Source: Pseudomonadota bacterium (GTDB taxonomy: Bacteria > Pseudomonadota > Alphaproteobacteria > Dongiales > Dongiaceae). Taken from it: a DNA stretch of 64,000 bases. Shown here in pieces: positions 32,937 through 44,539 of this stretch. Below the pieces are notes generated by a model, which had not been told where the DNA came from, did not search any database, and was given only the letters and a program-made list of their open reading frames with translations. Numbering within the stretch: position 1 is the first letter of the stretch; each line of letters opens with the position of its first letter. The translations under genes and the position numbers were made by a program. The stretch is from positions 1-64,000 of the forward strand of contig JAJYUT010000002.1 in assembly GCA_021792365.1 (NCBI GenBank). Reading direction: 5' to 3'.

Positions 32937-33926
32937 ATGAAGAAGCTGATCAACGGCACCGGAACGCTCCTGGAAGAGAGCCTCGCCGGCTTCGCCGCCG
33001 CTCATGCCGGGATCGTGACACTGGGCGAAGAAGGCAAGTTCGTGCGCCGGCGCGACCTTAAGCGCGGCAAGGTCGGCCTCATTTCCGGCGGCGGGTCGGG
33101 CCACGAGCCGTTGCACGCCGGCTTCGTCGGGCTGGGCATGCTGGACGCCGCCTGCCCCGGGCAGGTCTTCACCTCGCCCACGCCCGACCAGATGCTCGCC
33201 GCGGCCGAGGCGGTGGAGACCGGCGGCGGCGTCCTCTACATCGTCAAGAATTATGAAGGCGATGTGATGAACTTCGCCATGGCGGCGGAGATGGCGAATG
33301 GCAAGATCTCGACGGTCGTCACCGATGACGACGTGGCGGTCGAGACATCGACCTATTCGACCGGGCGGCGTGGCGTTGCGGGCACCCTGATCGTCGAACG
33401 CATGGTCGGCGCGGCGGCAGAGAAGGGTGCGGACCTCGAAGCGCTGCAGGCGCTCGGCCAGCGTGTGAATGCGCAAACCCGCTCCATGGGTGTCGCTCTG
33501 ACCAGTTGCACGGTTCCGGCCGCCGGCAAGCCGACCTTCCAGATCGGCGAGGACGAGATGGAGATGGGCGTCGGGATTCACGGCGAGCCGGGCCGCCGGC
33601 GCGTCAAGCTGGCCGCCGCCGATGCCATTGCGGACGAGATGATGGGGGCCATCCTGGGCGATCTAAAGCTCGCCTCCGGCAGCGATGTGCTGCTGCTCGT
33701 CAACGGATTCGGCGGCACGCCCGCGATGGAGCTGTACCTGATGTACAATGCCGCCAAGCGCATCCTCGACGGCAAGGGCCTCAAGGTGGCGCGGTCCCTC
33801 GTCGGGTCTTACGTCACCTCGCTGGAGATGGCGGGTTGCTCGCTGACGGTATCGGCTCTGGACAGCGAACTGACCACCCTGTGGGACTTGCCGGTCCACA
33901 CGGCCGCTCTGCGCTGGGGCGTCTAG
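32937..33926 (+). CDS. dhaK: PTS-type dihydroxyacetone kinase, substrate-binding subunit DhaK
   Basis: Predicted 329-aa DhaK, which binds the keto-sugar covalently through a histidine. That residue is H215 in GVGIHGEPG. GGGSGHEP (51-58, H56) and YEGDVMNF (D109) supply the other active-site groups. The length fits PTS-type DhaK rather than the fused ATP-dependent kinase. GGGAGG precedes the ATG. Normal substrate is dihydroxyacetone; related kinases use erythrulose, so the real substrate should be judged with the importer. It is the last gene of the operon. Confidence 0.94.
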   Translation: MKKLINGTGTLLEESLAGFAAAHAGIVTLGEEGKFVRRRDLKRGKVGLISGGGSGHEPLHAGFVGLGMLDAACPGQVFTSPTPDQMLAAAEAVETGGGVLYIVKNYEGDVMNFAMAAEMANGKISTVVTDDDVAVETSTYSTGRRGVAGTLIVERMVGAAAEKGADLEALQALGQRVNAQTRSMGVALTSCTVPAAGKPTFQIGEDEMEMGVGIHGEPGRRRVKLAAADAIADEMMGAILGDLKLASGSDVLLLVNGFGGTPAMELYLMYNAAKRILDGKGLKVARSLVGSYVTSLEMAGCSLTVSALDSELTTLWDLPVHTAALRWGV

Positions 33927-34001
33927 AAGGGGTGGCGGCTCTGCCATCAAAGCGTCACACAACTCGACTAGGAAGGGCTGAGGACCGGGTCGAGGAAGTG
34001 G

Positions 34002-34931
34002 ATGCTCGCCAAAATCGTCAAGGGTGTGCGGCGCAAGATTTGGCAGCACCTCTATCCCCAGCACTACTGGCACATGCGCCACTATGACGACCGTTTCACG
34101 CTCACTTGGCGGGATGGACGGGCGGAAGCGTGCTGGCGGGGGCAGTTGGCCGCCAAGTCGCTGCTGCCGCGCGAGATTACGCGCACAAGCTCTTCCTTGG
34201 CGATCATCGCCTCCGGCCCTTCGCTCTCGGCGACGCCGGCGCGCGCTTGGCAGGGGCGCGACATCGTCTGCGTGAACGGCTCCATCCTGTGGGCCCGCGA
34301 GCGCAACCTCCGGCCCAAGCTTTATGTCGTCACCGACCCTGGCTTCGCGCGGCGCCAGATCGAGCTGGTCCGCATGGCGATCGCCAGCGTAGAGACGGTT
34401 TGCCTGACGGTGCGCTGCCTGTTCGAGCTGCTGCGGCAGGATTCGGCCCTGTTCCTGGGCAAGAGGCTGCTCATCCTCGATCACATCAATCAGCCCTTCG
34501 GCCGCAATCTTTACACCCATGGCGAGCTTGCCGCGTTGCCAAAGGTGATGATCGATCCCAGCCGGCATTACCAGAACCGCTATATCGTCGGCGTCAGCAC
34601 CGATCTGCGGCTCGGCGTGTTCGCAGGCGGGACGGTCGTCCTTGCGGCTGCGCAGGTCGGCATGGCGCTCGGTTACCGCGACATTCACTTCGTCGGCCTC
34701 GATATGAAGCCCTGCGGCACCCAGGGACGGTTCTACAGCGAAGGGAAGCCCGAGCCGTCCTTCATCGACCGCAATCTCGACGGACTGATCCTGCCGTCCT
34801 TCGCCGTGTTGCGGCGCTATTGCGACGCCGAGGGCATTGTACTCTGCAACTGGTCGCCGGACAGCGCGGTGCCGCGCAGCCTCGTGCCGGCCGCTTTGCG
34901 CGACGTCGACCTCGCCGTGTCGGCGGCGTAA
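34002..34931 (+). CDS. DUF115/MptE-like protein of the glycan cluster
   Basis: Predicted 309-aa soluble protein. Residues about 66-75 (LAIIASGPSL) match the nucleotide-binding start of DUF115/MptE-like proteins, followed by DIVCVNGSILWARE and later YRDIHFVGLDM, the same alternating strand-loop pattern. Such proteins take part in surface or flagellar glycosylation in other bacteria. It opens a three-gene plus-strand block with a pyruvyl transferase and a GT29-like protein, spaced by only three bases from the next gene. Catalytic role unknown; family assignment is moderate. Confidence 0.6.
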   Translation: MLAKIVKGVRRKIWQHLYPQHYWHMRHYDDRFTLTWRDGRAEACWRGQLAAKSLLPREITRTSSSLAIIASGPSLSATPARAWQGRDIVCVNGSILWARERNLRPKLYVVTDPGFARRQIELVRMAIASVETVCLTVRCLFELLRQDSALFLGKRLLILDHINQPFGRNLYTHGELAALPKVMIDPSRHYQNRYIVGVSTDLRLGVFAGGTVVLAAAQVGMALGYRDIHFVGLDMKPCGTQGRFYSEGKPEPSFIDRNLDGLILPSFAVLRRYCDAEGIVLCNWSPDSAVPRSLVPAALRDVDLAVSAA

Positions 34932-34934
34932 CCT

Positions 34935-35975
34935 GTGCCAGCCGTCGAACAACGCGCACGTGTCGTCCTGCTCAACGACACGTCGAGGCACAACCATCAT
35001 GGTTGTCGCCGGGTCGTTACGACCATCCATCGCTGTCTCGCCGACCGGGGACTCGCCATCATCGACACGGCGCCGGCGGGCAGCCAGTGGTCGGAGGATG
35101 AGCGGTTCCTGCGCAGCATGGAACGCGCCGACCTGATCCTCATTAACGGCGAGGGGACGCTGCATCACGCGGCTGGCCTCGGAACACGCCTGCTCGAGGT
35201 CGTCGCGCATCCGGCGCGCGGCAACAGGCCGGTCGCGCTGATCAACACGATCTACCAGCACAATCCGAGCCAATGGGCGGAATGGCTGGGCCAGATGAGC
35301 TTGATCGCCACGCGCGATCGCAGCAGCCAGGCGGAGATTCAGGGGCTTGGCCTGCAGGCGGAGTACGCGCCCGACCTCAGCCTTCACTTCGGATCGCCGG
35401 GCTGGTCGCCTCGCGCAACAGACGGACCCATTGGCTACGGCGATTCGGTCTTTCCCGATGTCAAGCGGGCGCTCCGTCAGGCCTATCTGCACGAGGCGCG
35501 GCCGAGCCTCTATCTGCCGATCCACACCGGCATCCGGCACCCCGCGATTGCTTCCGACTGGTCGGTCCGGCGCCGCCTCCACAACATCCGGTTCGGCCTG
35601 CGCGCGCGGCTGCGCAATCTGCGCGATCGCGGCTACTGTGTCAGCAACGAGGTAGAGGGGTTCATCGGCGACCTTCGTCGCACCAGTATCTACCTGACGG
35701 GGCGCTATCACGGAATATGCCTTGCGCTGGCGGCCGGCGTTCCGTTCCGCGCCGTCGCATCCAATTCCCACAAGATCGAGGCGCTGTTGCGGGAAGCCGG
35801 CGTTCGGCCCGAGCGCCTCGCAGGGAGCGCCCCGGAACTCGCGCGCACGGCGCCTCACGAGTGGCGGTTTTCGACCGAAGAAGCCGCCAGCCTTTCCGCT
35901 TTCCTGCATGAGGGCCGGCAGCGGACCGAGACCTTGTTCGACCGCATCGCCGGCCTTGCCCTGCAGAGTCGATGA
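34935..35975 (+). CDS. polysaccharide pyruvyl transferase family protein
   Basis: Predicted 346-aa cytosolic enzyme that adds pyruvate ketals to sugars of surface polysaccharide. Conserved stretches of the family are visible: LILINGEGTLHH (about 74-85), LIATRDRSSQAEIQ, and near the C terminus YLTGRYHGICLALAAGVPF. The start is the GTG at 34935, three bases after the previous stop. Its stop overlaps the next gene start. The cluster context supports glycan decoration; the acceptor is unknown. Confidence 0.8.
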   Translation: MPAVEQRARVVLLNDTSRHNHHGCRRVVTTIHRCLADRGLAIIDTAPAGSQWSEDERFLRSMERADLILINGEGTLHHAAGLGTRLLEVVAHPARGNRPVALINTIYQHNPSQWAEWLGQMSLIATRDRSSQAEIQGLGLQAEYAPDLSLHFGSPGWSPRATDGPIGYGDSVFPDVKRALRQAYLHEARPSLYLPIHTGIRHPAIASDWSVRRRLHNIRFGLRARLRNLRDRGYCVSNEVEGFIGDLRRTSIYLTGRYHGICLALAAGVPFRAVASNSHKIEALLREAGVRPERLAGSAPELARTAPHEWRFSTEEAASLSAFLHEGRQRTETLFDRIAGLALQSR

Positions 35976-36556
35976 TGCTGGCCGGCCTGGTGGAGGCGAT
36001 GGACTATCTCGCCGGCAAATCCGTCGCCATCGTCGGCAATGCGTCGAGCCTGCTGAGCCACGCCTATGGCGATCTGATCGACGGGCACGACGTGGTCGTG
36101 CGGATGAATCGCGGCGTCCCGTTCGATCCTGTTGCCCAGGGACACAAGCGCGACATCTGGTGCTTCTCGACCATACCCGAGATCGGCGATGCGCTCGAGC
36201 GGGCTTCGCCACGCTTTGCAATCTGGATGTCCCCGCGGGCCCGGCAACATTACCAGGATGCGCAAGGGATCAGCTTCTATCCCGTGGACTGGTGGAAGTC
36301 GTTGCGCGACGCGCTGGGCGCGCGCCCTTCGGTTGGCGCCATGACCGTCGACCTCATATCACGGTCGGCGGCCTGCGCCGTCTCCGTTCTGGGTTTCGAC
36401 TTCAAGGCGAGCGGCACGTTCTACACGGCGCAGCAGCATGTCGGGCCGCACGATTACCGGGCGGAGTCACGCTACGTGCTGGGCATGATCGAGGAACGAT
36501 CCTGGCGCTTCGTGGAAACCAAGACGCTCGAGCCCGGCGAGTGCAAGGTAGGCTGA
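35972..36556 (+). CDS. GT29 sialyltransferase-like protein
   Basis: Predicted 194-aa protein with the signature elements of glycosyltransferase family 29. A large-motif-like stretch SVAIVGNASSLL...DLIDGHDVVVRMNRG runs from about 17 to 48, a small-motif-like RPSVGAMTVDLIS lies at 118-130, and H160-DYRA-E165 fits the very-small motif HxxxxE. It lacks a membrane anchor and is shorter than eukaryotic family members, as reported for bacterial forms. It might transfer sialic acid or another nonulosonate or Kdo-like sugar. Its last 90 bases overlap the convergent GT4 gene. No nonulosonate biosynthesis gene is in the window. Confidence 0.72.
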   Translation: MMLAGLVEAMDYLAGKSVAIVGNASSLLSHAYGDLIDGHDVVVRMNRGVPFDPVAQGHKRDIWCFSTIPEIGDALERASPRFAIWMSPRARQHYQDAQGISFYPVDWWKSLRDALGARPSVGAMTVDLISRSAACAVSVLGFDFKASGTFYTAQQHVGPHDYRAESRYVLGMIEERSWRFVETKTLEPGECKVG

Positions 36557-37735
36557 GGCGGCACGCTCGGCGGTGAAGGCTGCTCCCCGCGCACGCAGGA
36601 AGCTGGCCGGCGGCGGCGCGGTCAAGGTGAGGGCGATCGCCTCCGCAATGGCTGCGGCATCGCCGACGGGCACCAGCCTGCCATATCGTCCGCCCTCCAG
36701 AATCTCCGATGGTCCATAGGGGCAATCGGTGCTGACCACGGGGCAGCCGCAGGCCAGAGCCTCGATGATGACATTGCCCAGTCCTTCCCGATAAGAGGAG
36801 AGGACGAAGGCCGCGGCGTGGCGATAGAACGGGTAGGGGTTCTCGACATGCCCCGGAAGTTGCACATCGTCGCCCACGCCGAGCGAACGGGCGAGCGCAA
36901 GCAACCTGGCGCGCTCGCCGCGTTCCTGCTCTTCGCCCAGGATGAGCAGCCGCGCCGGCCGCCGTGCGCGCAGCAGCGCGAAGGCCCGGATCAGGGTCGT
37001 GAAATCCTTGGGCTTCACCAGCCTGCCGACACCAAGGATGACCGGCGGCTGACCCTGCTGGAGCCACGGATGGAGGGCCGGCTGCAACGCCCGCCGCTCC
37101 AAAACCTCGCCGGTGTGGATCGGGTTGTAGATGGTGGAGATCGAGCGGCGCGGAATGGCGCACAGATCGGCAAGGTCCTGGGCGACGCCGTCGGATACCG
37201 CGACGATCCCGTCCGCTCTCGGATAGAGCGCGCCGATCAGCGGTGGCACATGGCGCCAGCGCCAGGCTTGACGGCGCTCCGGGCGTCGTAACTGCACGGA
37301 CAGGGCATTGCGCTCGCTGACGATGACCTTGCTGGGAGCGCGCGATACCTGGCGCGCCCAGATAGCGGCGAGATTGCAATAGGTATCCGCCGAGATGATG
37401 GCGTCCGGCTGGCGCATCTCGAGATACTCGGCCAGAGCCGGCAGATAGAACATCGCCTTCTGCGGCAGGAGCGGCAGCATGACGGGCTTCAGGAACGATC
37501 GCCGCAGCGCGGGCTCGGCCCGCATCACCAGCGGCAGGTAGGCAAGCCTGGTCCGCCGCTGCAGCGGCACCAGGCGCACGCCCGCGGGCACCATCGACCG
37601 GCTGGGGCCGTCGGCGGTCCCGACCAGCAGATCGATCTCGTGGTCGCGTTGCACGAAAGTCGCGGCGAGATTGAGCGTAGAGCGCTGCACCCCGCCGCCG
37701 GACAGGCCGTGTATGAAGAGGGCGATCCGCGCCAT
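36467..37735 (-). CDS. family 4 glycosyltransferase A
   Basis: Predicted 422-aa GT-B glycosyltransferase. It opens IALFIHGLSGGGVQRSTLNLA, has the linker VILGVGRLVKPKDFTTLIRAF, and the nucleotide-sugar site EGLGNVIIEALACGCPVVSTDC with the EX7E glutamates. Its C-terminal codons overlap the convergent GT29-like gene by 90 bases. It starts five bases after the stop of the next GT4 gene and is the last gene of the minus-strand glycan block. Donor unknown. Confidence 0.92.
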   Translation of the reverse strand: MARIALFIHGLSGGGVQRSTLNLAATFVQRDHEIDLLVGTADGPSRSMVPAGVRLVPLQRRTRLAYLPLVMRAEPALRRSFLKPVMLPLLPQKAMFYLPALAEYLEMRQPDAIISADTYCNLAAIWARQVSRAPSKVIVSERNALSVQLRRPERRQAWRWRHVPPLIGALYPRADGIVAVSDGVAQDLADLCAIPRRSISTIYNPIHTGEVLERRALQPALHPWLQQGQPPVILGVGRLVKPKDFTTLIRAFALLRARRPARLLILGEEQERGERARLLALARSLGVGDDVQLPGHVENPYPFYRHAAAFVLSSYREGLGNVIIEALACGCPVVSTDCPYGPSEILEGGRYGRLVPVGDAAAIAEAIALTLTAPPPASFLRARGAAFTAERAASAYLALAGLERLGFHEAPGSFLDHAQHVA

Positions 37736-37740
37736 CGCCG

Positions 37741-38919
37741 CTACTCCGCCGCCTGACGAAGCGTGCTGGGCTGCTGCGATCGCAACAACGCGTCGACGTA
37801 AAGCTGAGCGATCCTGGCCTCGTCGAACTGGCGCGCCCGGGCGCGTTGGCGCTCCGGATTGCGTGGCGCGCGGAGGCTGCGCATCATCTCCTGTGCCAGG
37901 CGCCTGTGATCGCCGATGGGCACGAGGCTGCCGAACCAGCCGTCCTTGAGGATCTCGGCCGGCCCATGCGGGCAGTCCGTGCTGACCACCGGCAATCCGC
38001 AGGCGAGCGCCTCCAGCAGGACATTCGGCATGCCTTCGTAGCGCGATGACAGCACGAACAGATCGGCGCGGGAGAACAGGGGGAACGGGTTGTCCAGGTA
38101 TCCGGGAAACAGGATGCGATCATGGACACCGAGGTTCCGCGCCAGCGATTCAAGCCGTGCCCGCTCGGGCCCATCGCCCAGGATGACCAGCCGCGACGGC
38201 AGGAGCACCTGCAGGCAAGCGAAGGCGCGGACCAGGGTGGCATGGTCCTTCTGCGGAACCAGGCGGCCGGCCGTGACGATCAGCGGGCCGGAGCCGCTGT
38301 CCGGGACAGCCAGGCGGAGCGCGTCGCGGCTTGCCTCATCCACCCAATCGCATTCGACGCCGTTGGGGATGGCCACGATGCCATTCGTATCGAGCCCAAG
38401 CTCGACCAGGTTCCGCGCCACGCCGGCGCTGTTGGCGATGATGGCATCGGCTCTCCGGTAGAGGCGCGGGATCAGCCGGTCGCGCCAATGACTGTCGACA
38501 TCCGCCAAAGCCGCCGCGCCAGCGACATGCACGGCGTTGCTTTGACGCAGCACGAGGCGGCCCCGGAACCCGGTGGTCGATGCCGCCGTGGCCGCAACGA
38601 GGTTCGGTGGCACCGAGGTCGCAAAGAGCACATCGGGTTTCGCGCGCCGCAGATAGGACGCCAGCTTCGGGACGGAGCTTGCCATGCGCAAGCCATGCGG
38701 CACCGTCACGCCAAGCGAGGATGGCGGCAGCGGCGAGATATCCACGAGGTCGTAGGACGCGTGCAGCACCGATCGCAGCGCATGCTCCGGGCTCGCCGCC
38801 AGGAACGTGACCGTGCATCTGCGCCGGGTGAGAAGGTCGGCTACGCGCAGGAACAGCCGCTCGCGGTTGGCGATCCGCCGGGCGCTGACCAGGATCGCGA
38901 TGCTAGCGGCCGATCGCAT
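37741..38919 (-). CDS. family 4 glycosyltransferase B
   Basis: Predicted 392-aa GT-B glycosyltransferase. Features include IPNGVECDWVDE, LIVTAGRLVPQKDHATLVRAF and the donor-site EGMPNVLLEALACGLPVVSTDC. It shares clear similarity with the neighbouring GT4 (the same RLVxPKDxxTLxRAF and PVVSTDCPxGPxEIL stretches), so the pair may derive from an old duplication. It overlaps the sulfotransferase gene by 17 bases. Confidence 0.92.
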   Translation of the reverse strand: MRSAASIAILVSARRIANRERLFLRVADLLTRRRCTVTFLAASPEHALRSVLHASYDLVDISPLPPSSLGVTVPHGLRMASSVPKLASYLRRAKPDVLFATSVPPNLVAATAASTTGFRGRLVLRQSNAVHVAGAAALADVDSHWRDRLIPRLYRRADAIIANSAGVARNLVELGLDTNGIVAIPNGVECDWVDEASRDALRLAVPDSGSGPLIVTAGRLVPQKDHATLVRAFACLQVLLPSRLVILGDGPERARLESLARNLGVHDRILFPGYLDNPFPLFSRADLFVLSSRYEGMPNVLLEALACGLPVVSTDCPHGPAEILKDGWFGSLVPIGDHRRLAQEMMRSLRAPRNPERQRARARQFDEARIAQLYVDALLRSQQPSTLRQAAE

Positions 38920-39946
38920 GGGAATTTCCCCGGCTTGCTGACCGCGATTTCAAGAGCTGGCGCAGATCGGCCAGGGTCGAGGCGGTGGGAAGGTGCTTCC
39001 ACATCGTCATCGCCATGCCTCGAAGGGTCGGACCGCGGCGTCGCAGCTCGCCCTCCAGGTCGTCGACCAGGGCCAGGGTGCTGGACATCGCCTTGAATCG
39101 GCCCGTGAGCTGCGCCAGGTCGAGCGCGATGTCGGCATCCGCGGGAGCGTCGGCGTCGCGCGCCAGGTCGAGCAAACGGCGATACAGGCTCCAGGTCAGC
39201 GGATTGATGCCGTCGCCGGCCCGCTCATGCGCCTGGTCGTGCCGGTACGAGACGGAGACGAACTCCGTCGCATAGCGTCCGACCGCGGCCTCTACCTCGG
39301 CCGTGAGCGGCAGGCGCAAATGCCGTGCAATCCGGTGCAGCTCGGTCGCTGCCCCCGAGATCAACCGGTCATAGTCGACGACGACGTAAGGCCGCCGTGC
39401 CATCATCGCGAAGTACGGCAGGATCTGCGCCGCGAATTCCAGGTCCGATTTCTCCTGCAGCCCGCGCCGCGGATCGAGATTCTGGCGCGACCGCACCACG
39501 CTCGCGGGATGCCGGATTGCGAGCACGTAGCTGACATCCTGCTCGAGCTCCGTCAGCACCTGCTCCCAGAAGGGCAGGATCCGCATGACGCCGCCGACCT
39601 TGAATCCCCACAGCGGACAGCCGCCGAAACGGCGCCGGATCAGGTCCTTGGCCTCGTCACGCAGCCGGGCCAGGTCCGGATCCCGCCAGGCGGCATCGGC
39701 GATCCATCCGACCGATGATCCGTTGCGCCGCAAATTCAAGCGCGCGTGAGCCCGATAATTGATGTCCAGCAGATCGAGATCTTCGAAAAAGCCGCGCGGG
39801 TTCTTGCGCATCGCCGGTTTCAGCCGGCCGCCGAACGCAATGTCGAGCGCGATCAGGCCGCGCGCCAGGGTGCTGGTGCCGCATCGCCCGGGGCCGAGAA
39901 CGACGATGGCGCGCTGTTTGCTGCCGGAGGACGCCGCGTGGGCCAT
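38903..39946 (-). CDS. sulfotransferase family protein
   Basis: Predicted 347-aa cytosolic PAPS-dependent sulfotransferase. The 5'-phosphosulfate loop is LGPGRCGTSTL (about 17-27) and the 3'-phosphate site is LAIRHPASVVRSR in the middle of the protein. A helical C-terminal region of about 100 residues follows. In this cluster it probably sulfates a surface sugar or a lipid-linked intermediate. It follows the oxygenase gene by six bases. Confidence 0.85.
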   Translation of the reverse strand: MAHAASSGSKQRAIVVLGPGRCGTSTLARGLIALDIAFGGRLKPAMRKNPRGFFEDLDLLDINYRAHARLNLRRNGSSVGWIADAAWRDPDLARLRDEAKDLIRRRFGGCPLWGFKVGGVMRILPFWEQVLTELEQDVSYVLAIRHPASVVRSRQNLDPRRGLQEKSDLEFAAQILPYFAMMARRPYVVVDYDRLISGAATELHRIARHLRLPLTAEVEAAVGRYATEFVSVSYRHDQAHERAGDGINPLTWSLYRRLLDLARDADAPADADIALDLAQLTGRFKAMSSTLALVDDLEGELRRRGPTLRGMAMTMWKHLPTASTLADLRQLLKSRSASRGNSHAIGR

Positions 39947-39952
39947 GTGCGC

Positions 39953-40717
39953 CTAGAACCCGAGCGCCGTCCGGGCGCGGTTGACGAGGCTCGCCTTGCG
40001 GAACTCGACGATGAACACCCTGCGCAGCGCGCCGAGCGGGCATTCCAGCGGCCGTACGCCGTGCCAGGATTCCGCATCGCGGCGGAAGATCAGGCTGCGA
40101 TTGCCAAGCGGACAGGAGGCGATCTGGATGGGAAAATCCTCGAACTCCGGCGCCGAGCGTGGATCGAGGCCTGGCCTGCCGCCCAGCGCGATGGTTTCTC
40201 CGCCCCAGGCGGGATCCCAGTCGGACGCGGTGTTCAGGTAGAAGATGTGCGAGCCCAGCTTCCATTCGGCATCGCAATGGGGCGACACCGAGCAGCCGCG
40301 CGGCGTGTAGTGCCAATGGAAATGCAGGACAAAATCGTCGCGCCCGAGCAACGCGGCGACGAACCGGCGATAGGGCTCGCCCTGCAGTTCGCGGACAAGG
40401 TCGCGCCATAGTTCCGGGACGCTGCGCAGCGGGTGGTATTGCAGCACGAACCGGTCATGGCTGCGCTGCCCGTAGCGGCGGCGCCGGCCGAATACCTGCG
40501 AGAACATCGTCGGGTCCGGCAGGTCGCGGAGCAGGGCGTGGTGACCGTCGCGTGTGAGCAGGCCTTCGATCTCCAGGAACGGGAACGGCTTGATCGCCTG
40601 GAATGCGCGCGGATCGATCCCGCTCAGCACACTGGTGTTGAGGAACGCAAGATCGATTGCTCGATCGGCGGCATAGGATTGGTCGAGTGCTGTAGCGGTG
40701 GCGGTGGTCGAGGTCAT
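39953..40717 (-). CDS. 2-oxoglutarate/Fe(II) dioxygenase-like protein
   Basis: Predicted 254-aa double-stranded beta-helix oxygenase. The iron ligands are the HCD triad pair in SPHCDAEW and the distal histidine in DAESWHGVRPL, and the 2-oxoglutarate-binding arginine is likely in LRRVFIVEF. The ATG at 40717 is chosen because it lies two bases after the preceding stop; upstream codons are inside that gene. It sits between the ELM1-like and sulfotransferase genes, so hydroxylation of a glycan, lipid or peptide linked to the same pathway is plausible. Substrate unknown. Confidence 0.8.
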   Translation of the reverse strand: MTSTTATATALDQSYAADRAIDLAFLNTSVLSGIDPRAFQAIKPFPFLEIEGLLTRDGHHALLRDLPDPTMFSQVFGRRRRYGQRSHDRFVLQYHPLRSVPELWRDLVRELQGEPYRRFVAALLGRDDFVLHFHWHYTPRGCSVSPHCDAEWKLGSHIFYLNTASDWDPAWGGETIALGGRPGLDPRSAPEFEDFPIQIASCPLGNRSLIFRRDAESWHGVRPLECPLGALRRVFIVEFRKASLVNRARTALGF

Positions 40718-40719
40718 GG

Positions 40720-41901
40720 CTAGGCCGCCTGGTTCGCCAATGCGCTGGACTGCGCGGCGGATTGGACATGCGCCATCGGCTCCGACGTGCAGAGCTGCGT
40801 GATCCGGGCCACGGTCCTCGCCAGGTCCCATTCGATCGGCCGCATGTGCGGAGCGGGCGTGGAGTCCTGCGCGTCCCCGCCGATGTAGCCGCGTGCCTCG
40901 AGCGCGTGATGCAGGCGGCGCATGTCACGCGGGGGAGTCCAGTAGCCGCTGCGCGCGCCCAGCCGGAACAGCCAGCCGAAGCCAAGGTCCGGCATCCACC
41001 GGGTCACGATCCGAGACATCATTCGCTCCCGCAGATCGAACAATTCCATCGCCCGGCCGGTATTCGCGGCCTCCGCGATCATAGACGCGCTCTCGCCGGT
41101 CACTACGAACCGATCGGCAAGGGCGATGATCCCCAGATAGGGGTTCTCGCTTTGGGATGCCTGCCAGAGGTGGACATGCGAAGGGCAGGAGAGGGAACGT
41201 GCAATCATCTCCGCGCGCGCGGCCGGCGTGCGCGGGCTCGTCGCGAGCAGGACCGAGCCGCCGCTCTCTTGCGCCAAGCGGTTCAACCGCGCGCCGAGCC
41301 GCTTGGCACAATCCGACGTCAAACGGAACGAGCCGCTGTTCCCACCGACCATGGCGCCGATCCACGGCCGCGGCAGATGCGCGAAGCGGGCGCCCCACAG
41401 CGCGGCGGCGGCTCTGATCCGGTCCGCTTCCACGTGGTTGAGCGGCAGCATATTCAGCTGCACGTTCTCCGACTCGGGGAGCGCATATTGCGGCGTCGTG
41501 ACGACCAGATCGAAATCCGCGAGCCGGGCCCAAGGCCGGCCGAGGAAGACGATCTTGGTCCGGCCGTCAGAGGCGCTCTTGATCCAGCGCGCCAGCGTCA
41601 CGGCGCGGCCGCCGGCGGCGATCAGCAGGTCGGGAAAGTCCTCGTCGGTATGTCTCCGCTCGTGCCACGGCGCATGCAGACCGATGGAATTGAGCGCGCG
41701 CCCGGCGATCACCTCAGGGATTGTATCGTTCAGCCGTACGAGTCGCACGGCCCCGCGCAACGCGCTCGCCAGGGCCAGGACCTGCCTGTCATCCCCGATG
41801 CGGCCTTCCAGCACGGCCCATATCGTCAACGCGCGCGGCGTCGCGATGGGAAAGCCGGTATCGTCTGGATCGATCCGCCGAATCAGCATGCCGTGCGCCA
41901 T
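40720..41901 (-). CDS. ELM1-like (DUF1022) protein
   Basis: Predicted 393-aa protein of the mitochondrial-fission ELM1-like family, common in alphaproteobacteria and shaped like a GT-B glycosyltransferase. Typical parts are ALTIWAVLEGRIGDDRQVLALA at the N terminus, WIGAMVGGNSGSFRL in the middle and FVVTGESASMIAEAANTG toward the end. Bacterial function is not established, but neighbours here make a glycan role attractive. An ATG four codons in could also be the start. It is first in the five-gene minus-strand glycan block; 131 bases upstream hold its promoter region. Confidence 0.83.
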   Translation of the reverse strand: MAHGMLIRRIDPDDTGFPIATPRALTIWAVLEGRIGDDRQVLALASALRGAVRLVRLNDTIPEVIAGRALNSIGLHAPWHERRHTDEDFPDLLIAAGGRAVTLARWIKSASDGRTKIVFLGRPWARLADFDLVVTTPQYALPESENVQLNMLPLNHVEADRIRAAAALWGARFAHLPRPWIGAMVGGNSGSFRLTSDCAKRLGARLNRLAQESGGSVLLATSPRTPAARAEMIARSLSCPSHVHLWQASQSENPYLGIIALADRFVVTGESASMIAEAANTGRAMELFDLRERMMSRIVTRWMPDLGFGWLFRLGARSGYWTPPRDMRRLHHALEARGYIGGDAQDSTPAPHMRPIEWDLARTVARITQLCTSEPMAHVQSAAQSSALANQAA

Positions 41902-42032
41902 GACCTGCGTTGAACGTTGAGGCAGGTATGGAAGCGAATTGCTTCATGCCGACGATATATGCGTTACAAAATCGCGGCGATTTGGAGTCGCTGACGCGTC
42001 TTGGGGCGCTCAGGCGAAGCGAAGAGTTCGGG

Positions 42033-43172
42033 TCAGTCCGCGGTGCTGTGGCGATAGCGCCGCAGGTGATAGTCTTCGTCGCCAAACATCAGGCGGATCA
42101 TGGTCAGTCGCTTGAAATAATGACCGGCGGCATAGTCGTCGGTCATGGCGATCCCGCCATGCAGCTGGATCGCCTCTTCGCCCACATGGCGGGCGGCGCG
42201 GCCAATCTGCACCTTGGTGGCGGAGACAGCGCGTCGCCGCGCAATGGGATCGGAGGAATCGAGCGCGGCCAGGCCGGCCAGCGCCATCGACTGCGCGAGC
42301 TGGCACTTCATGTACATGTCGACCATGCGGTGCTGGATCGCCTGGAACGAGCCGATCGTTGCGCCGAATTGTTTGCGCATTTTGATGTAGTCGAGGGTCA
42401 TATCATGGAGATGCCACATTGCTCCGACTGCTTCGGCGCAGATCGCGGCCGTGCCGGCATCTAGCGCGGCTTCCAGCGTTTCGAGTCCGGAGTCCATCGC
42501 ACCGACCAGGGAATCCGCCGACACCTGAACCCGCTCGAGCCTGAGATCGGCGGCCCATCCGCTGTCATGCGTGCGATAGGCGTTGACCGCGAGGCCGGGC
42601 GCATCGGCAGGTACCAGGAACATCGAAATGCCGTGACCATCGCCGACCTCGCCGGAGGTCCGCGCGCTGACCAGCAGGTGGTCCGCGACGTTGCCATAAA
42701 GCACAGCCAGCTTCTCGCCGCTGATCACGAACCCATCGCCTTCGCGCCGCGCGCGCGTCGCGACACAGGCGGGGTCCGGGTGCCCCGGCGGCTCGAGATA
42801 GGCGAGGGCCAGCCGGGTCGTTCCTTCGGCGACGGCTGGCAAGATGGTAGATTGCTGTGCCGCGCTGCCGGCCAGCCGCAGGATCGTGCCACCCAGCACG
42901 ACGGTCGGAACAAAAGGCGAGGTCACGAGCCCGCGCCCGAACTGCTCCATCAGCAGAGCCAGATCGGCATGCGACCCGCCGAGGCCGCCATGCTCCTCCG
43001 GCAGGGTCGCGGCAAGCCAGCCGAGTTCCGCAAGCTGCGCCCACACGGGATCGTCCGCCGCGCCGAGCCTGGCGAGAAGCGTCTTGCGCTTCTCGAACGC
43101 GTAGTCCTGCTGGCGGAAGCGCTCGAGGCTTTCCTTCAGCAAGCGCTGTTCGTCTGTCAGGCTGGGCAGCAT
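42033..43172 (-). CDS. acyl-CoA dehydrogenase B
   Basis: Predicted 379-aa FAD enzyme of the acyl-CoA dehydrogenase superfamily that introduces a double bond next to the thioester. It starts LTDEQRLLKESLERF and has LPEEHGGLGGSHADLALLMEQFGRG and the C-terminal QLHGGIAMTDDYAAGHYFKRL. The usual catalytic glutamate position is not obvious, as often in the smaller partner of a paired dehydrogenase. The ATG at 43172 lies two bases after the other dehydrogenase's stop, which favours a two-subunit enzyme such as those for sterol or branched substrates. Confidence 0.9.
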   Translation of the reverse strand: MLPSLTDEQRLLKESLERFRQQDYAFEKRKTLLARLGAADDPVWAQLAELGWLAATLPEEHGGLGGSHADLALLMEQFGRGLVTSPFVPTVVLGGTILRLAGSAAQQSTILPAVAEGTTRLALAYLEPPGHPDPACVATRARREGDGFVISGEKLAVLYGNVADHLLVSARTSGEVGDGHGISMFLVPADAPGLAVNAYRTHDSGWAADLRLERVQVSADSLVGAMDSGLETLEAALDAGTAAICAEAVGAMWHLHDMTLDYIKMRKQFGATIGSFQAIQHRMVDMYMKCQLAQSMALAGLAALDSSDPIARRRAVSATKVQIGRAARHVGEEAIQLHGGIAMTDDYAAGHYFKRLTMIRLMFGDEDYHLRRYRHSTAD

Positions 43173-44392: not shown

Positions 44393-44539
44393 ATACTCTT
44401 AGACTGGTCTTAACGCCTTTTTGCGCTTGCGCTTGCTTGGAAACGACGCCGCGATGGCGTGTGACGGCGCTCGCTTGGGCGATGCTACGGCCCTGCCAAT
44501 CATCGGTTGCTGAGTCATCCCAAGGAGCTCCCCTGCAAG

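Follow-up and report, generated by a model that had tools for sequence, protein, structure and literature searches.

The eight genes considered here lie in a stretch of 64,000 nucleotides (the window) at the start of contig JAJYUT010000002.1 of assembly GCA_021792365.1, from an alphaproteobacterium that belongs to the genus Dongia and is a relative of D. deserti. They are named g1 to g8 in position order, fill positions 34002–41901 and form two convergent, tightly packed operons (34002–36556 on the plus strand and 41901–36467 on the minus strand), which together constitute one precise, well-bounded and species-specific insertion of 8.1 kb. The reading favoured here, in which our confidence is evenly balanced, is that this island is a lipopolysaccharide (LPS) core locus using cytidine monophosphate-activated 3-deoxy-D-manno-oct-2-ulosonic acid (CMP-Kdo) or another CMP-ulosonate. 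A preliminary description of this DNA had recognised eight genes in two opposed blocks, and all eight open reading frames (ORFs) are indeed present. On the plus strand g1 and g2 are separated by 3 bp and g2 and g3 overlap by 4 bp; on the minus strand the gaps measure 2 to 6 bp, and one pair of genes overlaps by 17 bp. Where the operons converge, g3 and g4 share 90 bp at their 3′ ends, and the g3 homologues of two congeners stop 11 residues earlier.

The insertion was delimited by comparison with three other Dongia genomes, G001, G002 (D. deserti) and G003, a metagenome-assembled genome (MAG) labelled Rhodospirillum sp. PB1.008; G-numbers denote genomes and L-numbers DNA stretches from other genomes or loci. 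The site lies between dhaK and an acyl-CoA dehydrogenase gene, names that were read from the sequence rather than assigned by profile. Gene order on either side agrees with that of the window in G002 and G003; in G001 (68% complete) it does so on the left, and the contig stops inside the acyl-CoA dehydrogenase gene; protein identities of the neighbours are 72–97%. In all three congeners dhaK meets the dehydrogenase gene directly, with a 4-bp end overlap in two and a distance of about 10 bp in the third. Measured by aligned genes, the spacing is 8107 bp in the window versus 15–40 bp in the congeners (18 in G002, 15 in G003), and among ten other intergene gaps compared a notable difference was seen only at the two around an ORF at 44482. 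When the flanks were searched with blastn, DNA similarity to the congeners ended at the dhaK stop (about 33926) and resumed at about 42051, which places the insertion at 33927–42050. More widely, 15 of 17 genomes of the family have dhaK-type genes; their surroundings were compared in five, the three congeners and two genomes of another genus, and in the latter two dhaK was present with no relative of the dehydrogenase within 18 kb. Because the flanking genes adjoin in all three other Dongia genomes compared, the eight genes form one block and are grouped beyond chance; gain in the source species is the simplest reading, the alternative being loss in all three congeners. The preliminary description had made synteny in relatives a test of the cluster: the eight-gene set is not syntenic, and what recurs in relatives are sub-modules.

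No integrase or transposase is found among the eight genes, and 33901–34010 and 41881–42080 have no word of at least 9 bp in common, in either orientation, that would indicate terminal repeats. A foreign composition finds no clear support, the composition being near that of the host: mean G+C at third codon positions is 0.826 for the eight genes versus 0.850 for the 44 other genes of the window (Mann–Whitney p 0.035), with values below 0.83 in four of the eight and 11 of the 44, and the mean codon-usage distance is 0.110 in both groups. Low coding scores of the island genes came from a home-made gene caller that also missed g3. The empty site in the congeners and the lack of a known phenotype would fit a silent or decaying passenger; however, none of the eight frames is interrupted, g3, g7 and g8 retain their motifs and g6 recognisable segments, and codon usage equals that of the other genes, so that we regard this explanation as highly improbable.

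The third gene, g3 (35972–36556, plus strand, 194 aa), encodes a minimal member of glycosyltransferase family 29 (GT29), the family with the sialyltransferase fold. Its product scores 33.9 bits against PF00777 (Glyco_transf_29; cut-off 23), the aligned part being residues 17–49 in the region of the L motif. In an alignment of four sequences the invariant residues include V21-G22-N23...G33, I36-D37-x-H39 and R44-M45-N46 (L motif), P119-S120-V121-G122...G141-F142 (S motif) and H160...E165 (VS motif, H-x4-E); we take these segments to be the L, S and VS sialylmotifs, although the alignment of the S segment with ST3Gal-I stays below significance. Foldseek matched an AlphaFold model (pLDDT 78, pTM 0.81) to 22 structures with E values of 0.001 or better; the titles of 21 name mammalian sialyltransferases, and that of the remaining one (5cxy) says only “glycosyltransferase”. 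Aligned with VIA-align, the model matched pig ST3Gal-I (2wnb) with Z 14.4 and a root-mean-square deviation of 2.8 over 168 residues, the next structures listed being the MptE-type HPPK of M. jannaschii (8sd5, Z 11.6) and the GT42 enzyme Cst-I (Z 11.0), within a GT42/HPPK range of Z 10–12. Judged by its motifs and predicted fold, g3 is a true GT29, and in both respects it looks like a CMP-ulosonate transferase.

Homologues of g3 were found in 3 of 96 genomes, its own included, all of the same genus; G001, the fourth member, whose genome is incomplete, gave none. PF00777 matches occur in 3 of 387 alphaproteobacteria including the source genome, a protein search of which found no second GT29, and a Rhodobacteraceae MAG has a relative of 35% identity (alignment-based contig search, three loci; a single-sequence search gave none). 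In G002 and G003 a pyruvyltransferase–GT29 pair lies directly downstream of the pyruvate kinase gene (L004:4948–7920 and L005:9896–12851); comparison of the two genomes gave identities of 87% for pyruvate kinase, 56% for the pyruvyltransferase and 65% for the GT29. The product of g3 shares 49% and 54% identity with the GT29 proteins of these congeners, in which dhaK reaches 94% and 91%, and it is therefore unlikely to be a moved vertical orthologue of the pair. Phosphoenolpyruvate is a substrate both of ketal pyruvylation and of Kdo synthesis, and also of pyruvate kinase, whose gene stands ahead of the congeners’ pair.

Further GT29 genes were seen in two low-GC alphaproteobacteria, G112 (L075:7128–8453) and G406 (L076:6275–7015), with PF00777 scores exceeding that of g3. 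H-x4-E is found in L075 too and is missing from the shorter L076; both have GT4 genes as neighbours, and G406 has FkbM and GDP-mannose dehydratase genes as well. Two IMG/VR viral contigs, L103 and L104, also encode GT29 relatives, of 27% identity (query residues 11–148) and 50% identity (residues 8–45).

The papers cited here are represented by excerpts, to which all statements about them refer. Bacterial GT29 proteins have been treated as sialyltransferases, sialylmotifs having been described in 23 sequences, mostly alphaproteobacterial (Petit et al. 2018, PMC5811610). The motifs are common to those proteins and g3, which differs from them, as excerpted, in its minimal form, its pairing with a pyruvyltransferase gene and a genome in which the only NeuB-family gene is PseI. 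A second precedent comes from plants, where the GT29 protein RCKT1 (RCKT1/MGP2) is needed for Kdo in the pectin rhamnogalacturonan II and is a genetically supported CMP-Kdo transferase (PMC11288761); family and proposed donor are thus alike, whereas the acceptor is a pectin and the enzyme resides in the plant Golgi.

In the minus-strand operon, g8 (40720–41901, minus strand, 393 aa) encodes a protein of the ELM1/GtrOC1 family, a KdoT-like putative CMP-ulosonate transferase, with 177.2 bits against PF06258 (Mito_fiss_Elm1; cut-off 27). The ELM1-family KdoT of Acinetobacter was shown in 2025 to be a CMP-Kdo transferase in vitro, and in cells it depends on a GT4-type partner; in its SRRT motif R180 matters and R179 is dispensable (PMC12856342). 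Placed by pattern and position, g8 carries S-P-R-T where KdoT has SRRT, the first Arg being replaced and the second kept, so that the residue retained in g8 appears to be the one that matters in KdoT, R180. The pattern S-x-R-T is present in 23 of 27 ELM1 proteins of the loci examined (28 distinct proteins, one off-frame ORF dropped). Neither this ELM1 precedent nor that of the plant GT29 (PMC11288761) had been considered in the preliminary description.

The family is common, being present in 181 of 222 alphaproteobacteria, and the source genome holds three copies by protein search and four matches by profile. In a tree of 26 of the 28 distinct proteins (the two-domain L028 and the off-frame ORF of L074 were excluded), g8 falls outside the well-supported clade of vertical ELM1 proteins (L041, L022, L023, L025), on an unplaced branch of its own with length 1.46; a recent duplication of the genome’s own ELM1 gene as the source of g8 thus finds no support. 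The vertical copy (L041:8109–9263, grouping with L022, L023 and L025) adjoins alpha-2-macroglobulin-type and penicillin-binding-protein genes in the source genome. ELM1/GtrOC1 genes were also seen on IncP-typed plasmids of Diaphorobacter and Pseudomonas (L105:7980–9056 and L106:6708–9050), where, by annotation, the two neighbourhoods have no gene in common with the island.

The first gene, g1 (34002–34931, plus strand, 309 aa), encodes a WaaZ-related, MptE-like putative ulosonate (Kdo-type) transferase. WaaZ is, by the NCBIfam name of TIGR04437 (WaaZ_KDO_III), the KdoIII transferase of LPS; g1 matches this model over residues 61–296 with 78.9 bits, far below the equivalog cut-off of 200, and the MptE-like family with 23.4 bits (cut-off 34.6). 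It is accordingly described as related to WaaZ on the strength of the profile match and is not assigned as WaaZ, from which its gene neighbourhood differs too; no paper was found on a WaaZ/Kdo assignment to a CAZy glycosyltransferase family. Homologues are rare, the source genome being alone among 17 of the family and one of two among 386 alphaproteobacteria. The other, in G258 (E 6.4e-4; 29% identity over 168 residues), lies in a run (L079:3585–10382) of genes for a GT2 protein, a cytidylyltransferase, a 2-hydroxyacid dehydrogenase, a sulfotransferase, the g1 homologue and an FkbM methyltransferase. There the g1 homologue is over the MptE-like cut-off and has 22 bits with the WaaZ model, the sulfotransferase scores 22.1 bits (cut-off 22) and the cytidylyltransferase is PseF-like (81.5 bits, cut-off 205.7). 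With KdoT, WaaZ and RCKT1 as precedents, three of the eight genes, g8, g1 and g3, belong or are related to families with a record of Kdo transfer.

Which ulosonate would be available was sought in the biosynthetic genes of the source genome. The NeuB family (PF03102) is represented by one gene, PseI (480 bits, cut-off 340); PseB and PseC are likewise over their cut-offs, and a PseG-like gene is below. This Pse cluster is situated on the same contig about 320 kb from the island. Four genes match CTP_transf_3. The first, on contig C9, is KdsB-like (141 bits to CTP_transf_3), and the motif in its N-terminal sequence makes it a probable KdsB; the second, just before the Pse genes, scores about 30 bits with KdsB models (cut-offs of 155 and more) and gave no PseF match; the third is GlmU, and the fourth falls below the Pfam cut-off. 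From the NeuB-family and CTP_transf_3 searches, CMP-Kdo and presumably CMP-pseudaminate are the ulosonate donors that the genome appears to make, and sialic acid is an unlikely donor, because the sole NeuB-family gene found is PseI. The label “sialyltransferase-like” given to g3 earlier therefore holds for its motifs and predicted fold, and a sialic-acid reading of the gene is weakened.

The same Pse genes raise the thought of flagellin glycosylation, with g1 as a Maf-like pseudaminate transferase, Maf being presumably linked to its MptE-like family, and with the other enzymes as accessory modifiers. The MptE-like domain of g1 is below cut-off, however, g1 scores higher with the WaaZ model, and a long distance separates the island from the Pse genes; we also know of no role in flagellin glycosylation for ELM1 proteins or pyruvyltransferases, and give this explanation very little credence.

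Core sugars are attached to lipid A in the cytosol and exported by a general exporter, and LPS-core loci are typically without polymerase and flippase. Profile scans with Pfam and NCBIfam of the eight island proteins, which also covered ten other proteins of the window, found no polymerase, flippase or exporter among the eight genes, as the preliminary description had said; if the island is a core locus, neither a polymerase nor an exporter of its own would be required, and their absence would be accounted for. The proposal that the enzymes decorate a glycan assembled elsewhere retains its premise, the missing polymer machinery, which is equally typical of an LPS-core locus. Donors, acceptor, order of steps and product would then be as follows. 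Cytosolic island enzymes would extend and decorate the LPS core; each of g8, g1 and g3 is a probable transferase of a CMP-activated ulosonic acid, for which Kdo from the housekeeping pathway is the likeliest candidate; g4 and g5 would add further sugars; g2, g7 and, least surely, g6 would add a pyruvate ketal, a hydroxyl and a sulfate; and the general export route for lipid A-core would carry the product out. The in vitro activity of KdoT, the S-x-R-T pattern of g8, the WaaZ match of g1, RCKT1 and the KdsB-like gene together support this assignment.

The LPS-core location is further favoured by the gene content of the outer-core (OC) loci of Acinetobacter. These loci list ELM1, GT4-type and pyruvyltransferase genes (PMC4172580), and those of A. 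baumannii (GtrOC1/KdoT, GnaT, PtrOC1; PMC4172580, PMC10936431, PMC12856342) resemble the island in being compact variable loci between housekeeping genes. Their first gene, gtrOC1, is of the ELM1 family and common to both locus groups, GT4-type genes are present, a PS_pyruv_trans gene occurs among the loci, and no polymerase, flippase or export gene is named in the excerpts. The island has OC-type gene content as taken from PMC4172580 (ELM1 and GT4-type genes, an optional pyruvyltransferase gene, no polymer genes). The differences are the site, dhaK/acyl-CoA dehydrogenase rather than ilvE–aspS; GT29, WaaZ-like, 2-oxoglutarate (2OG) oxygenase and sulfotransferase genes, none of which is named in the excerpts on the OC loci; and the host, Acinetobacter being a gammaproteobacterium. 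The location is also favoured by the Pseudomonas plasmid, on which lptF and lptG are found no more than about 5 kb from the ELM1 gene. The island is in these terms a new gene combination within a known kind, the variable core loci of LPS and lipooligosaccharide.

All seven gene labels given in the preliminary description are apt, and six are upheld by scores over the Pfam cut-offs; the sulfotransferase falls below, and the eighth gene, left unnamed there, is the WaaZ-related g1. The product of g2 (34935–35975, plus strand, 346 aa) is a polysaccharide pyruvyltransferase family protein (PF04230, PS_pyruv_trans, 41.0 bits, cut-off 25.3; CsaB model TIGR03609, 31.8 bits, cut-off 213.1), 30% and 27% identical to the GT29-paired proteins of the two congeners. 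On the minus strand, g4 (36467–37735, 422 aa) and g5 (37741–38919, 392 aa) encode GT4 glycosyltransferases with 118.3 and 120.5 bits against PF13692 (Glyco_trans_1_4; cut-off 27), 41% identical to each other over 304 aa. The 2OG-Fe(II) oxygenase gene g7 (39953–40717, minus strand, 254 aa) most likely starts at 40717, directly after the g8 stop, rather than at 40831, as the homologue of genome G205 in L074 supports; its product scores 28.3 bits against PF13640 (2OG-FeII_Oxy_3; cut-off 27) and shows HxD...H...R, which we take to be the 2OG oxygenase motif.

The sulfotransferase-like protein g6 (38903–39946, minus strand, 347 aa) reaches 17.7 bits against PF13469 (Sulfotransfer_3; profile positions 2–215 of 216, cut-off 27) and is not assigned to the family. 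Its segments GPGRCGTS and RHPASVVRSR, which we assume to bind 3′-phosphoadenosine-5′-phosphosulfate, have counterparts in the G205 homologue (41% identical), for which no Pfam match was obtained at E 0.001; matches to g6 occur in 23 of 386 genomes including its own, and g6, g7 and g8 gave no NCBIfam match at E 0.1 or better. As g6 misses its cut-off and its best homologue is without a Pfam match, sulfate is the weakest part of the earlier picture of a surface-glycan cluster whose modifiers add negative charge, of which a surface glycan lacking its own polymer machinery and a probably acidic product survive.

Parts of the minus-strand operon recur in relatives beside genes of the neuABC type. 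A cluster in G205 (L074:3554–15405) carries in one direction genes for ELM1, a 2OG enzyme (51% identical to g7 over 233 aa), a GT8-like/ELM1 fusion, ELM1, the g6 homologue, GT8 and a methyltransferase, and ends with a cytidylyltransferase, a NeuB-family protein and a UDP-GlcNAc 2-epimerase; it thus has three ELM1 copies. In G005 (L038:9465–13622), ELM1, cytidylyltransferase, NeuB-family and epimerase genes stand with one for a GT4 protein 45% identical to g4 over 399 aa, and G008 (L039:5548–12606) has ELM1 and the same three gene types, 64–67% identical to those of G005. The label neuABC-type is based on the G005 epimerase, which is over the NeuC cut-off; the two NeuB-family proteins tested lie below both synthase cut-offs (303 and 296 bits for N-acetylneuraminate synthase, cut-off 400; about 200 for PseI, cut-off 340), and the G205 cytidylyltransferase fits PseF best, below its cut-off. 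Unlike the island, these clusters have NeuB-, NeuC- and cytidylyltransferase-type genes of their own, and no homologue of g1, g2 or g3 in the stretches compared. With ELM1 beside neuABC-type genes in G005 and G008 (2 of 17 Dongiaceae genomes) and in G205, and the g1 homologue beside a PseF-like gene, both families are linked to CMP-ulosonate synthesis, and the gene neighbourhoods suggest nonulosonic acids other than Kdo as the sugars that some ELM1 proteins transfer.

That sub-modules recur apart (the g2–g3-type pair in G002 and G003, and ELM1–2OG–g6 in G205), that the blocks lie on opposite strands and that they occur together only in the source genome among the loci examined would also be expected if g1–g3 and g8–g4 were unrelated modules sharing one insertion by chance, with no joint product. 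We think this improbable, as both blocks lie inside one clean-edged insertion and the G258 run, with its g1 homologue beside sulfotransferase and CMP-sugar cytidylyltransferase genes, mixes both kinds.

The neuABC-linked clusters bear more directly on a different alternative, in which the island enzymes modify a polymer assembled elsewhere, be it an O-antigen, a capsule or an exopolysaccharide, using CMP-pseudaminate or a sialic/legionaminic-type sugar instead of Kdo. Homologues of ELM1, 2OG and g6 in G205 and ELM1 with a g4-like GT4 in G005 argue for it, as do PseB, PseC and PseI and the PseG-like gene of the source genome; on the other side, the island has no polymer genes, the Pse cluster is remote and PseI is the only NeuB-family gene found. 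It is possible, though we would not expect it to be correct.

Several points tell against an LPS-core locus that uses Kdo. In 2 of 17 Dongiaceae genomes and in G205 the neighbours of ELM1 are neu-type and not kds genes, and for this reason a nonulosonate donor is possible. The vertical ELM1 of the genus is without S-x-R-T, and the likeness of g8 to KdoT is one of family profile and motif pattern; g1 and g6, respectively, miss the WaaZ equivalog and sulfotransferase cut-offs. No LPS-core gene stands beside the island among the 18 window proteins scanned (eight of the island and ten others), core genes not having been mapped genome-wide, and by title no paper on Dongia LPS was among the literature matches listed.

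If the LPS-core reading is right, the island would offer a bacterial system for a direct test of the GT29 donor, would tie ELM1/KdoT, a recently defined family, to clusters of the nonulosonate type and would illustrate how a single block carrying an LPS-core locus can be acquired between housekeeping genes. It is of interest chiefly for a prediction open to test, namely that Kdo is used by both the GT29 and the ELM1 protein of one bacterial island, and the label “sialyltransferase” on a bacterial GT29 gene is no evidence of sialic acid. A bolder proposal, which we put forward as a speculation more apt to fail than to hold, is that the ELM1/KdoT, WaaZ-related and GT29 proteins form an ulosonic-acid assembly line that yields a hyperacidic core with several Kdo or nonulosonate residues, pyruvate and sulfate, bacterial GT29 proteins being primarily Kdo-type transferases and counterparts of RCKT1 rather than sialyltransferases. 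GT29 and ELM1 are known from plants as well as from alphaproteobacteria, so that RCKT1 and the plant ELM1 could each derive from a Kdo toolkit of this sort. The earlier remark that no described cluster of this composition was known still holds to the extent that, in one open-access library, no paper was found on pyruvyltransferase, sulfotransferase and GT29 together.

Outside the island, a GT2-family protein is encoded at 574–1806, near the left end of the window (PF00535, 31.8 bits), and a tRNA-Met at about 50–126 is the sole tRNA and sole Rfam match of the window.

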